Assembly (NCBI RefSeq): GCF_004122115.1
Contig: NZ_SBKP01000001.1
Span: 372,001 to 436,000, forward strand
DNA from: Sphingobium fluviale
GTDB lineage: Bacteria > Pseudomonadota > Alphaproteobacteria > Sphingomonadales > Sphingomonadaceae
Reading direction: 5' to 3'
Length of the DNA stretch: 64,000 nucleotides
Shown one piece after another: positions 12,024-38,160 of the stretch; the first letter of the stretch is position 1, and each line of letters starts with the position of its first letter. Position numbers and translations under genes: made by a program. A model generated the notes under the pieces. It saw only the letters and a program-made list of their open reading frames with translations, had not been told where the DNA came from and made no database searches.

Positions 12024-13325
<1,302 letters not shown>

Positions 13326-13408
13326 CGTTTCCAGTCCCCATCATATCGACAGGTCCGTGCCCCCGCACATTCCTGTCCCTTCGATGGGGTGATTGTGCGT
13401 AATAACGC

Positions 13409-13423
13409 TTAGGATATGGTTAA
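13409..13423 (-). promoter_or_regulatory. CtrA-like box upstream of the flagellar activator gene
   Basis: On the minus strand the site reads TTAACCATATCCTAA: a perfect TTAACCAT half followed by CTAA at the 7-base spacing of the CtrA consensus TTAA-N7-TTAA, with one mismatch. It lies about 85-98 bases upstream of the activator ATG. In Caulobacter and relatives CtrA drives early flagellar operons, so this fits the top of the cascade. Function is inferred from sequence. Confidence 0.5.
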
Positions 13424-13440
13424 TGGCTGCCGCCTTTATT

Positions 13441-13581
13441 GCCGGGCGGCAATTTTTTTCCGCATTGATGCATTTTTTGCCGCATCCTTTGCCGTACCCC
13501 CATTTATGGCGAAAATCTGCGGGTTTCAGCGCATGGCCGCTGGCCAGTTTTTGCCGCCTTTTTGCCGGTCTGGCGGCAAAA
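13441..13581. promoter_or_regulatory. Cluster of ftr-like CGGCAAAA motifs
   Basis: Several copies of TTTTGCCG or its complement CGGCAAAA occur within 141 bases: near 13446-13457 (CGGCAATTTT, imperfect), 13474-13482, 13548-13556, 13559-13567 and 13574-13581. They resemble the core of Caulobacter ftr sites bound by FlbD and lie between the FlbD-like gene and fliC1. Likely enhancer sites for the neighbouring activator. Confidence 0.45.
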
Positions 13582-13618
13582 CCGGGCCGTTAACGACTTA
13601 AGCGAACCCGGCAACAGA

Positions 13619-13642
13619 CGTTTTTTCGCTTCGAGGCCGCAA
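13619..13642 (+). promoter_or_regulatory. Shared flagellin leader/promoter element, copy 1
   Basis: CGTTTT, five unconserved bases, then TTCGAGGCCGCAA. The same bipartite sequence with the same spacing precedes fliC2. It ends 51 bases before the fliC1 ATG. GCCGCAA resembles the -10 part of sigma28 promoters, but no TAAA -35 is present at the right distance, so it could equally be a transcribed leader element. Confidence 0.45.
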
Positions 13643-13693
13643 GCATCAACACAGGCAAGCGACCGAAACATTCTTCAGGAAAGAGGAACGAAC

Positions 13694-14542
13694 ATGACTG
13701 TTATCGGAACCAACATTGCCGCAATGCGCGCCCAGGCCGCTTCCAACTCGGCCACCAACCAGCTTCAGAGCTCGATGGAGCGTCTGTCTTCGGGCAAGCG
13801 CATCAACAGCGCGAAGGACGACGCCGCCGGCCTCGCCATCGCCACCAAGATGACCGCGCAGATCCGCGGCCTCACCGCTGCTTCGCGCAATGCCAACGAC
13901 GGCATCTCGCTGGCGCAGACCGCAGAAGGCGCGCTCGGCCAGATCAGCAACATCATCCAGCGCGTTCGTGAGCTGGCTGTTCAGTCCGCCAACGGCACGT
14001 CCACCAACGCTGACCGCGCTGGCCTGGATAACGAGAGCCGCGCGCTGCTCGATCAGATCGACGCGATCGCCACCAAGACCAACTTCAACGGCGTTGCGCT
14101 GCTCGACGGTTCGGCCGCAAGCATCAGCATCCAGACCGGCACCGGCGCAAGCGATACTGTGGCGGTTGGCCTCTCCGACGCCCGCGTTGCTACACTGAAC
14201 ATCGCGAAGGCAGCCTCTCAGGGTACTGCCGGCACCAGCGAGATCGATCTCGCCACTGCCACCAACGCTTCGAATGCTCTTGCCACGCTCGACACCGCGC
14301 TCACCACGGTTGCTGCGGCCCGTGCGTCGCTGGGTGCCAGCCAGAACCGTCTGCAGGTTACTGTCGAGAACATCAGCTCGACCGTCACGAACCTGAGCGA
14401 AGCCCGCTCGCGCATCGAGGATGTAGACTTCTCGTCCGAGACGACCAGCCTCGCCAAGGCGCAGATCCTGAGCCAGGCCTCCACCGCGATGATCGCGCAG
14501 GCCAACCAGGCTCAGCAGGGCGTCCTCTCGCTGATCCGCTAA
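13694..14542 (+). CDS. fliC: Flagellin 1
   Basis: Filament subunit of the flagellum. The 282-residue product has only the conserved D0/D1 regions: N-terminal [37 protein letters not shown], and C-terminal [19 protein letters not shown] to [11 protein letters not shown]. The variable outer domain is nearly absent. I chose ATG 13694 because GAGGAA precedes it and because the product then begins at the conserved flagellin start; an open frame extends further upstream but has no support. fliC2 is a tandem paralogue of equal length. Confidence 0.97.
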
Positions 14543-14601
14543 GATCAACGAGTGACCTGAATTGACCGGCCGAGGTCTTGGTCCGCCTCGGCAAGTCATC
14601 G

Positions 14602-14640
14602 GACCCCCGGCATACTCCAGTCCCCACCGTGCCGGGGGTC
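14602..14640 (+). terminator. First 3' hairpin of fliC1
   Basis: GACCCCCGGCA (14602-14612) pairs perfectly with TGCCGGGGGTC (14630-14640) across a 17-base loop. No T-run follows, so it is not a complete intrinsic terminator by itself. The same hairpin, with a similar CTCCAGTCCCC loop, follows fliC2. Confidence 0.6.
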
Positions 14641-14700
14641 TTACCTTCGATCAAATGACCACAAGGCAAAACACGCCAAACAACGAAATACGCACAATTC

Positions 14701-14734
14701 TCCTCCGCCCCTTCCCCCAAGGGCGGAGGATTTT
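14701..14734 (+). terminator. Rho-independent terminator of fliC1
   Basis: Perfect 10-base stem TCCTCCGCCC (14701-14710) with GGGCGGAGGA (14721-14730), loop CTTCCCCCAA, followed by TTTT. A related hairpin ends the fliC2 transcript. Confidence 0.85.
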
Positions 14735-14770
14735 GTGTGCCTGTGAAAAAATAAAACCTAGTGAAAACAA

Positions 14771-14805
14771 TATGGTAAATAGAATCAGCAGAAAAATTTA
14801 CCATA
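14771..14805. repeat. Inverted repeat in the AT-rich region upstream of fliC2
   Basis: TATGGTAAAT (14771-14780) and ATTTACCATA (14796-14805) form a perfect 10-base inverted repeat separated by 15 bases, 95 bases before the fliC2 ATG. It may be an operator for a dimeric regulator or a stem. No counterpart is seen ahead of fliC1. Confidence 0.45.
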
Positions 14806-14831
14806 GCGATTAAAAGTCCACTCACATCCGC

Positions 14832-14855
14832 CGTTTTCCCCTTTCGAGGCCGCAA
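14832..14855 (+). promoter_or_regulatory. Shared flagellin leader/promoter element, copy 2
   Basis: CGTTTT, five bases, TTCGAGGCCGCAA, matching the element before fliC1 at identical internal spacing. It ends 44 bases before the fliC2 ATG. Conservation between otherwise diverged upstream regions argues for function. Confidence 0.45.
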
Positions 14856-14899
14856 TGGTTCCCATGCCAGAGCGACTTACCTGTTAGAAAGGGACCAAA

Positions 14900-15748
14900 A
14901 TGACTGTAATTGGAACAAATATCGCCGCGATGCGCGCTCAAGGCGCATCTATGTCTGCATCCATGCAACTGCAGGAATCAATGGAGCGTCTGTCTTCGGG
15001 CAAGCGCATCAACAGCGCGAAGGACGACGCCGCCGGCCTCGCCATCGCCACCAAGATGACCGCGCAGATCAAGGGACTGACTGCCGCTTCGCGTAACGCC
15101 AATGACGGCATCTCTCTGTCGCAAACGGCGGAAGGCGCGCTCGGCCAGATCAGCAACATCATTCAGCGCATCCGCGAGCTGGCGGTGCAATCCGCCAACG
15201 GCACCGTAACCAACGCGGACCGTCTGGGTCTGGACAATGAAAGCCGCGCTCTGCTCGATCAGATCGATACGATCGCGACAACCACCAACTTCAACGGCGT
15301 CTCGCTGCTGGATGGTTCGGCCGCCAGCGTGAGCATCCAGACCGGCATCAATGCAAGCGACACCGTGGCGATCACGCTCGCTGACAGCCGCAGCACGACG
15401 CTCAACATCAAGAAAGCTGCGGCTCAGGGCACCGCTGGCACCAGCGAGATCGACCTTGCAACCGCCGGCAACGCCTCGAATGCGCTCGCCACCTTAAGCA
15501 CCGCACTGGCTGCGGTCGCCTCGGCCCGCGCATCGCTCGGCGCCAGCCAGAATCGTCTGTCGGTCACGGTTGATAACATCGCATCGACCGTCACCAACCT
15601 CACTGAAGCGCGTTCGCGGATCGAGGATGTCGATTTCTCAGCAGAAACGACGACGCTGGCCAGAGCCCAGATCCTCAATCAGGCCTCCACCGCGATGATC
15701 GCGCAGGCCAACCAGGCTCAGCAGGGCGTCCTGAAACTGATCCAGTAA
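14900..15748 (+). CDS. fliC: Flagellin 2
   Basis: Second flagellin, 282 residues, closely similar to flagellin 1 over its length and likewise reduced to the D0/D1 core. The N-terminus [22 protein letters not shown] and C-terminus [11 protein letters not shown] differ slightly from copy 1. A 90-base tract and a 53-base tract are identical between the two genes while surrounding codons differ at many third positions. It has its own leader element and terminator, so separate expression is possible. Confidence 0.97.
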
Positions 15749-15762
15749 TACAGTTCGGCTTG

Positions 15763-15872
15763 GGAGCATTTTCTGGAAAAATGGAAACCGGTTTTCCGCC
15801 TGAAAATGCTCCAAATATAGGATAGACCATTTTCCGAGGCGATGACCGTTCGCGGTCATCTGGAAAATGGTC
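15763..15872 (+). repeat. Bipartite double-hairpin intergenic repeat, copy 1
   Basis: Two consecutive hairpins. The first has outer arms GGAGCATTTTC (15763-15773) and GAAAATGCTCC (15802-15812) around the palindrome AAACCGGTTT. The second has outer arms GACCATTTTCC (15825-15835) and GGAAAATGGTC (15862-15872) around GATGACCG-TTCG-CGGTCATC. A related 115-base copy lies at 38046-38160. Compared with fliC1, this element accounts for almost all the extra length between the flagellin stop and its terminator region, so it looks inserted. Confidence 0.85.
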
Positions 15873-15916
15873 GGGGACCGGCCCATGGTATTGGTCCGCC
15901 TCAAGCCGGTCTGACG

Positions 15917-15954
15917 ACCCCCGGCACTCTCCAGTCCCCCTCTGTGCCGGGGGT
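15917..15954 (+). terminator. First 3' hairpin of fliC2
   Basis: ACCCCCGGCAC (15917-15927) pairs perfectly with GTGCCGGGGGT (15944-15954). It matches the fliC1 hairpin at 14602-14640 in stem and loop; both are followed by CCTTCGATC and TGACCACAAG. No T-run follows. Confidence 0.6.
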
Positions 15955-16008
15955 TCCCCCTTCGATCGAGTGACCACAAGAGCATAATTTTCTGTAGAAA
16001 AATCAAAG

Positions 16009-16040
16009 CCCTCGCCTCTCCCCCAAGAGCGAGGGTTTTT
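16009..16040 (+). terminator. Rho-independent terminator of fliC2
   Basis: CCCTCGC (16009-16015) and GCGAGGG (16029-16035) form the stem, followed by TTTTT. The loop contains the CCCCCAAG seen in the fliC1 terminator, showing common origin. It lies about 50 bases from the convergent rmuC stop. Confidence 0.8.
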
Positions 16041-16087
16041 CTATGGTTGCAAAACATGGCGCTTCATATGTGGCCATACCGCTACAG

Positions 16088-17575
16088 CTATTCGGCGGCT
16101 GCGGCGCGCTCCTCATCCTGGTTTTGGTTTTGGTCCTGGGCGAGGGCGAGGCCAGCATCGGGCGCCAACGCATCCCCTATCAGCGCACCAACGGCCTCCG
16201 GCGCAGCGGGGTCTCGCGCCAGCATATCGATCTGTTCCAGCTCCTCTATCTCGCGCCCGCCAGTTTCGATATTGAGGTCACGCAGCTTACGCCCGGTGAC
16301 GAGCACGCGGCTTTCGAAGCTGGACGTGAACTTGTTATAATCGGCCACAGCGCCATTGAGGCTGCGCCCCATCTTCTTGAGACCAGAGGCCGCGACCGCC
16401 AGCCGCTCGTAGATTTCCTTGCCGAGATGGCCGATCTGCTTCGCTTCCTGCGCCATTTTTTCCTGCCGCCACACCGCGGCAACCGTGCGGGCGATCGCGA
16501 TGAGGTTGGTCGGCGTCGCCAGCAGCACACGCTTGGAATGGGCATATTCCCACAGGCCCGGCTCTGCATCCAGCGCGGCGGTAAGGAAATGTTCGCCCGG
16601 CACAAACATGATGACATAGTCTGGCGTATCGGAAAACTGCGCCTGATAATCCTTGCGGCCAAGCGCATCGACATGGGTGCGCATCGAGGCGACATGGCGC
16701 ATCAGGCACTCGGCGCGCAGGGCTTCGCCATCGGCCTCGAACGCATCCTGATAGGCGTTCAGCGATACCTTGGCATCAATCACCAGCGAGCGGCCGCCGG
16801 GCAGGCGAACGATCACGTCCGGTCGCAGCCGTCCGTCCTGCCCCTCGACACTCACCTCGGTCTGGAAATCGGCATGTTCGGACATTCCGGCCATTTCCAA
16901 TACGTTACGGAGCTGCTGTTCACCCCAGCGACCGCGCGCCTTGGGCGCGGCACGCAGCGATGTGACCAGCCTTTGCGCCTCGGCCTGCACCCGCTCCTGC
17001 CCGGCGCGCATCGAATCCATCAGGCCTTTCAGCTCGCCATAGGCCTCGGTGCGAGCGCGCTCTATGTCAGTAATACGCGCGTCATAGCTCTTGATCTGCT
17101 CTCCCACAGGATGCAGCAGCGCCTTCAGCTGCGCCTCGGATCGCTCATGCTGCTGCGAAAGGCGCTGATCGGCGCGCTCAAGGAAAGCGCGCTGCGCCTC
17201 GCCCAGCAATTTGCCGCCGATCTCGCTGAATTGCGCCGAAAGCTGCTCCTTCGCCTCGCCCAGCGCGCGGAGCTGCGCCTCCAGCCCCTCGGCCCGCGCC
17301 AGCGCATCCGCCTCCAGCGCGGCAAGCCGGGTGCGCACGGCATCGCGATCCTCGCGCAGCGCCATAACCTCGGCGCGAAGTCCCTCAGCGCGGCGCTGTT
17401 CCTCGGTAATGTCGCGCAGTGCGGCGTTGCGTTGTTCCTCGGCACGGACCAGCCCGTCCGCCGCCTCCCGCTCTCGCCGCCGCAGCTCCGCCACCGGTCG
17501 CGCGCCGAAAAACCAGCCCAGCGCAAGGCCTGCAAAGAGCGCAACAAGGCTGAAACCAAAGGCGAGCGAATCCAC
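16088..17575 (-). CDS. rmuC: RmuC family DNA recombination protein
   Basis: RmuC proteins are membrane-anchored, nuclease-fold proteins that limit recombination at inverted repeats; the exact reaction is not settled. The 495-residue product has an N-terminal membrane helix (residues 4-25), a long coiled coil (about 30-185) and a C-terminal RmuC domain with the family stretches RWGEQQLRNVLEMAGM, RPDVIVRLPGGRSLVIDAKVSL and FVPGEHFLTAA. It is the last gene of a recR-def-rmuC run on the minus strand. Confidence 0.95.
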   Translation of the reverse strand: MDSLAFGFSLVALFAGLALGWFFGARPVAELRRREREAADGLVRAEEQRNAALRDITEEQRRAEGLRAEVMALREDRDAVRTRLAALEADALARAEGLEAQLRALGEAKEQLSAQFSEIGGKLLGEAQRAFLERADQRLSQQHERSEAQLKALLHPVGEQIKSYDARITDIERARTEAYGELKGLMDSMRAGQERVQAEAQRLVTSLRAAPKARGRWGEQQLRNVLEMAGMSEHADFQTEVSVEGQDGRLRPDVIVRLPGGRSLVIDAKVSLNAYQDAFEADGEALRAECLMRHVASMRTHVDALGRKDYQAQFSDTPDYVIMFVPGEHFLTAALDAEPGLWEYAHSKRVLLATPTNLIAIARTVAAVWRQEKMAQEAKQIGHLGKEIYERLAVAASGLKKMGRSLNGAVADYNKFTSSFESRVLVTGRKLRDLNIETGGREIEELEQIDMLARDPAAPEAVGALIGDALAPDAGLALAQDQNQNQDEERAAAAE

Positions 17576-38045: not shown

Positions 38046-38160
38046 TAGAGCATTTTCAGCAAAAGTGGAAACCGGTTTTGCGTCTGAAAATGCTCTACTA
38101 CTGAAAACCGGACCATTTTCCGAGCCGATGACCGCTTTTCGGTCATCTTGAAAATGGTCT
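38046..38160 (+). repeat. Bipartite double-hairpin intergenic repeat, copy 2
   Basis: First hairpin: TAGAGCATTTTCAG (38046-38059) pairs perfectly with CTGAAAATGCTCTA (38084-38097) around AAACCGGTTT. Second: GACCATTTTC (38111-38120) with GAAAATGGTC (38150-38159) around GATGACCG-CTTTT-CGGTCATC. Same architecture as 15763-15872. Several differences between the copies are paired changes that keep the stems. It lies in the divergent gap between asd and the lipoprotein gene. Confidence 0.85.

Follow-up and report, generated by a model that had tools for sequence, protein, structure and literature searches.

The CIR of Caulobacter reportedly go back to Chen and Shapiro in 2003. These CcrM/CerM-associated intergenic repeats have been treated in reviews (PMC2229807, PMC10969869). 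The account in PMC2229807 describes them as units of about 110 bp with two long inverted-repeat arms, a linker and TA termini, present in alphaproteobacteria as several related repeat species, and the repeat described here resembles them in all of these points. REPs are described as having a GTAG head (PMC2817692). In the description of REPINs given in PMC3116915, an inverted pair of imperfect hairpins is dispersed as one unit and single arms occur too, which is also seen here. RIME and the AB and C palindromic repeats of Sinorhizobium meliloti are likewise presented as intergenic palindromic mosaic elements of alphaproteobacteria (PMC2573895, PMC2873474), and were set beside our units by description alone. 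The RUP and Correia/NEMIS MITEs, as summarized in PMC2229807, share with our units a length of about 107–155 bp, TA at ends or targets, and non-autonomy. The available part of a paper on GTAG/CGTC repeats (PMC3733652) contained no mention of sphingomonads under the term "sphing". The titles listed on repeat and REP/RAYT topics named no Sphingobium repeat family, which does not prove that none has been published, and a literature search with the core sequence gave no bacterial-repeat title among the matches listed.

The window analysed is a stretch of 64,000 nucleotides from Sphingobium fluviale (contig NZ_SBKP01000001.1). It carries two flagellin genes, fliC1 and fliC2, and the element at 15763–15872 lies between the fliC2 stop codon and a block that both genes share, 14 bases from the stop. 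The features of the locus are as follows.

14540..14563, plus strand: fliC1 stop codon and the 21-nt spacer ahead of the shared block, the paralogous site without the element (from the sequence and relatives).
15746..15762, plus strand: fliC2 stop codon and the 14-nt upstream flank (from the sequence).
15764..15811, plus strand: arm A, an imperfect palindrome with an unpaired bulge on its 3′ (linker) side (from the fold; pairs kept in five units).
15812..15824, plus strand: linker of 13 nt joining arms A and B (from the sequence and the fold).
15825..15872, plus strand: arm B, an imperfect palindrome with an unpaired bulge on its 5′ (linker) side (from the fold; pairs kept in five units).
15876..15960, plus strand: block common to fliC1, GACCGGCC ... 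inverted repeat CCCCCGGCA/TGCCGGGGG (from the alignment of the fliC1 and fliC2 3′ ends in the window and relatives).

The sequence-only reading had counted 21 bases between stop codon and shared block in fliC1 and 127 in fliC2, 110 of them belonging to the element. These counts and coordinates were exact on recheck. The fliC1 stop TAA is at 14540–14542 and GACCGGCC starts at 14564; the fliC2 stop TAA is at 15746–15748 and GACCGGCC starts at 15876. The shared block, with its strong inverted repeat, is a probable terminator. The six best orthologues of fliC2 were all in Sphingobium genomes.

Folding agreed with the double hairpin that had been proposed at 15763–15872, giving two stable palindromic arms and the 13-nt linker. 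Arm A has the exact form GAGCATTTTC-N28-GAAAATGCTC at 15764–15811, and arm B the exact form GACCATTTTC-N28-GAAAATGGTC at 15825–15872. Folded as RNA, the 110-base element reached −53.1 kcal/mol (z −7.1); 200 dinucleotide shuffles averaged −26.9, and none was as low. Both arms carry the unpaired bulge on the side facing the linker, which makes A and B an inverted pair in shape. The larger bulge also pointed to the linker in the A-B units (arm A, linker, arm B) and B-B units and in most folds of the A′-C class described below; the C arms of L219 and L225 were without it. Across five A-B units, standard pairs were found in 96.4% of pair cells, against 37–55% when the partners were slid by 1–3 columns. 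The covariation score of these five units was matched in 11 of 500 shuffles, and their three two-sided covarying pairs were equalled in 70 of 500. These values support pairing of the arms kept across the A-B units, with weak covariation. An Rfam search of 13000–17500 gave one match only, to RF02450, which lies outside the element and scored 22 bits, below the gathering score of 60.

The two flagellin genes had been taken as an empty and a filled site. The first part stands, as fliC1 carries no element. The bases beside the two stop codons fail to align, however, and paralogues alone are no proof of insertion, so this comparison was dropped as proof; the orthologues give better evidence of insertion. 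At the orthologous fliC2 site, the element is present in the window, in G061 (L047) and in G063 (L049, Sphingobium sp. DEHP117). The site is empty in G062 (L048), G064 (L050), G065 (L051) and G066 (L052), and the empty orthologue L048 reads TAATACAGTTCGGCTT-CAACTA-GGACCGGCC. No element was visible in G067 (L108), where the sequence is too divergent to be read. The alternative that the element had been deleted from fliC1 found no backing, as no element stands at fliC1 in the window or in G061–G064 (L047–L050), the four relatives in which a fliC1 orthologue was read. In a tree of the fli region built with the element left out, the fliC2-filled species lie on one side of a branch with support of 94/97 (81–88 in an earlier alignment), which corresponds to one change. 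Alternative trees with G062 among the filled species gave p-AU values of 0.019, 0.043 and 0.010, and the rival grouping of G000 (the host genome), G061 and G062 was barely rejected (0.043). The asd tree conflicts with the fli tree by grouping G062 differently. The junction of the fliC2 copy is not clean.

Cleaner junctions were found elsewhere. The window holds a second complete unit of the same class.

38048..38159, plus strand: second complete A-B unit, 82% identity, with putative asd on the minus strand to one side and a putative patatin-like gene on the plus strand to the other, as named from their translations.

This unit is missing in seven of seven relatives, and the bases that it splits are intact in five of them. 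The window reads CCCATA[GAGC..GGTC]TGGCCTATTG where G061 and G063 read CCCATAGCCTAT; the sequence ATAGCCTAT, split by the unit in the window, is intact also in G062, G064 and G067. G065 and G066 are likewise without the element. Upstream of asd, the five relatives keep ATAGCCTAT, possibly a part of the promoter of this gene. Among the A′-C units, 10 joined sites were queried in four relatives and seven aligned. Readable junctions showed L226 to be empty in G063 and G061, and L216 to be empty in G063 and G062. At L209, L211, L219, L222 and L223 the unit was missing in several relatives, and at L239 and L240 relatives were shown without the unit; the junctions of all seven were unclean and they were left out of the precise count. 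The site of the copy on contig C44 yielded no empty site that could be read. G062 carries an A-B unit, L228, whose site is also filled in G061 (L230) and is empty in G000, G063 and G064; the empty site of G064 reads CTGAT/TAAGG exactly. Set against the fli tree, this distribution needs either a loss (possibly by clean excision), recombination or a wrong tree.

The copies in the genome were then counted. Within the window, the two arm motifs had 14 and 13 matches at no more than one mismatch, against 4.3 and 2.4 expected, and none of 100 shuffles had as many; the motifs overlap at one mismatch, and the two units account for eight of the matches in each search. The host genome is a draft of 3.07 Mb in 48 contigs. 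BLAST with the 110-base unit found three places at E ≤ 0.01, namely the unit itself, the second unit (82%, E 8e-24) and an eroded copy on contig C44 (78%). BLAST alone would imply a nearly single-copy element, and this was corrected by a covariance model, R1, built from the five A-B units. R1 gave 24 rows at E ≤ 0.01, three of them both-strand duplicates, and hence at least 21 distinct places, which is a lower bound because 150 of the 371 first-look candidates were scored. The element is therefore not single-copy. The 21 places comprise 2 A-B units (fliC2 and asd), 2 units of an inverted B-like arm and B (L209, L210), 4 fragments with the B arm (L014, L211, L212, L214), 1 lone arm A (L213) and 12 A′-C units (L215–L226), in which the core of arm A is kept in A′. 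Nine of the 12 A′-C units are mutually 90–99% identical, and the remaining three are 73–92% identical to the rest. Such near-identical copies are probably recent. A further class, consisting of a short arm (e.g. GAGCGTTTTC..GAAAACGCTC) and B, was seen at L234, L236, L238 and L240, with lengths of about 88–92 nt.

The core pattern AAAAGTGGNNACCGGTTTT occurred 23 times in the genome, and its reversed control did not occur. At least five of these sites lie outside the 21 R1 places, judged from 13 listed of the 23. Elsewhere the pattern was found in 10 of 288 sampled genomes of the class, with at most seven occurrences each; three of these genomes belong to the same family and none to the same genus. 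Within the genus, R1 matched 59 of 94 genomes (host included) at E ≤ 0.001 when no more than 40 candidates were scored in each.

Most units end at TA. By script, 12 of the 16 complete units of the genome have TA immediately outside the left arm and 13 have it outside the right arm; the right end of L226 was mis-anchored by the script and is TA by eye. The fliC2 copy is flanked by GG on both sides instead of TA, and the asd copy by TA and TG. A single TA in the empty site corresponds to TA on both sides of the unit at L216 and L226, and to TA on one side and TG on the other at asd, from which a duplication of a TA target appears likely. No TA was added at L235, a single-arm unit, or at L228. 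Six of the 16 units (L210, L216, L221, L222, L223, L226) have a boundary at which an open frame of 90 or more codons ends; these frames are mechanical, and TAG at the boundary alone would close one frame in three. L216 and L223 lie between the stops of two convergent open frames, and each boundary forms or touches a stop codon. Beside L221 and L224, a second dispersed repeat was observed (GGGGCTGTGGGGATT...CCCATATGGGCC), for which G063 showed 21 matching places. This repeat is similar to the end of the L292 IS5-like element and is a possible IS5-type MITE.

We conclude, with a probability of about 85%, that the fliC2 element is a copy of a double-hairpin repeat of Sphingobium that is dispersed and non-autonomous and spread by insertion. 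The earlier suggestion of a discrete mobile or copied unit agrees with the empty and filled orthologous sites and with the related places in the genome. The spreading unit is a pair of inverted imperfect hairpins with a linker, about 100–114 bp long and mostly TA-ended. It inserts between genes at TA-containing sites, sometimes directly behind stop codons, and would be moved by an enzyme that acts in trans and recognises the hairpins. The fliC2 copy may have entered once, in an ancestor of the three species that carry it, and then have been inherited and have decayed.

A different origin would be a functional RNA or DNA structure of the fliC2 3′ region, such as an mRNA stabiliser or attenuator, that is ancestral and has disappeared from fliC1 and some of the species. 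The position between the stop codon and the probable terminator, the very stable fold and the persistence of the arms in G061 and G063 fit such a role. However, the A-B unit also stands in unrelated places, such as beside asd; the fliC2 site is empty in four of the seven species read and the fliC1 site wherever it was read; and one gain is enough on the fli tree. We regard a retained structure as very improbable. The element could instead be a REPIN, in which two inverted REPs are moved in trans by a RAYT (Y1 HUH) transposase with single-strand cutting. Its two imperfect hairpins, inverted to each other and joined by a short linker, match the description of REPINs in PMC3116915, and the TAG/CTA that is fixed at the feet of the arms is reminiscent of the GTAG head that PMC2817692 describes for REPs. 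The enzymes speak against it. A Pfam search for PF01797 (RAYT/Y1), the REP-associated transposase, gave no match in the host genome (99.99% completeness) and found the domain in 19 of the 61 genomes searched. Among the 37 genus genomes common to both searches, R1 matches occurred in 9 of 12 with Y1 and in 18 of 25 without, and the three highest R1 counts (18, 15 and 14) were all in genomes without a Y1 match. Four Y1 loci of the 25 matches listed were scanned for cognate REPs, and no R1 match lay within 1.5 kb of them; one of these loci belongs to a different genus, and another to a genome that has no R1 match. A REPIN is thus an unlikely identity for the element.

Another possibility is a MITE-like unit whose mover is a DDE insertion sequence that targets TA, of the IS5/IS427 or the IS630/Tc1-mariner type, with duplication of the TA target. 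The single and double TA at asd, L216 and L226 agree with this, and the A-B units have near-matching ends (GAGCATTTTC, GACCATTTTC), whereas the two ends of the A′-C units share only the terminal GAGC and the additional TA is missing at L235 and L228. For the IS630 type, PF13358 (DDE_3) had no match in G000, G061 or G063. It matched in G062 (3), G006 (1), G035 (10) and G014 (6), and no R1 match was found around these 20 loci. PF13340 (IS5-like) matched in G000 (2), G061 (1), G062 (4) and G063 (8), and four copies in G063 (L300, L302, L303, L305) have YTA[G..C]TAR junctions, as in most units. The IS5-like L296 of the host genome starts with GAGC and sits at TTA. The ends of the IS5-like elements nevertheless differ from those of the units (GGGTCAGGAC); terminal repeats were sought by script in 11 of the 15 loci, and no end sequence shared with the units was found beyond, at best, the GAGC of L296. 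Near the 15 loci, R1 matched only at L297 and L304, both in G063; in each, the IS occupies a CTAG of a unit that was already there. L304 (1418–2260) has its IS5-like element at the CTAG end of a double-hairpin unit. L297 (954–1811), with R1 arms on both flanks, had been considered as a parent element and was rejected; the IS has entered a unit at a CTAG of its linker, and at this site the unit is uninterrupted in G006 and G110. A domain search may miss degenerate or unfamiliar enzymes. An IS5-type mover was kept as a possibility, and the DDE explanation was weighted higher, because the IS5-like copies share the junction pattern; we consider it possible but doubtful. The element is therefore REPIN- or MITE-like, as had been proposed, in its non-autonomous behaviour, but its membership as a REPIN or an IS630 MITE is not supported, as the host genome matched neither PF01797 nor PF13358.

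Returning to a non-autonomous repeat spread by insertion, we tentatively consider a modular TA-site element, though this is rather less than probable. The mover would recognise a single hairpin arm and not a terminal inverted repeat, and differing arms (A, B, A′, C and the short arm) would be paired in inverted orientation. Such a mover may be a hairpin-handling transposase that has so far escaped recognition, an enzyme of the IS5 type that acts without matching ends, or one supplied by the host. Arms seem to have been exchanged between the unit classes. With filled and empty sites and probably recent copies at hand, and the usual enzymes not found, the search for the mover becomes concrete. 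The repeat also calls for caution, since a hairpin behind a bacterial gene may have been inserted as a repeat rather than have evolved as a terminator or regulator.

In comparison with the known systems, CIR are the nearest described kind, judged by the published descriptions and not by sequence. CIR carry a conserved GANTC at or by the arm loop according to PMC2229807, whereas the A-B units do not: GANTC occurred in neither of the two A-B units of the genome and in 7 of 34 units overall, against a background of 63 occurrences in the 64-kb window. REPINs are tied to RAYT genes as described in PMC3116915, and no RAYT was found in this genome; the units here occupy some two dozen places and have TAG/CTA at their feet instead of GTAG. 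RUP and Correia/NEMIS have terminal inverted repeats of 9 and 24 bp in the account of PMC2229807, and those of RUP resemble an IS. In contrast, our units have self-folding arms, and the A′-C ends agree only in GAGC. The family was placed among the two-arm intergenic repeats because it has a CIR-like architecture without GANTC and a REPIN-like pair without RAYT. We regard it as a new family within these repeats of alphaproteobacteria, mobile by the empty-site test. If the modular-arm reading is true, the CIR-like repeats of alphaproteobacteria would form one wide class with that mover.
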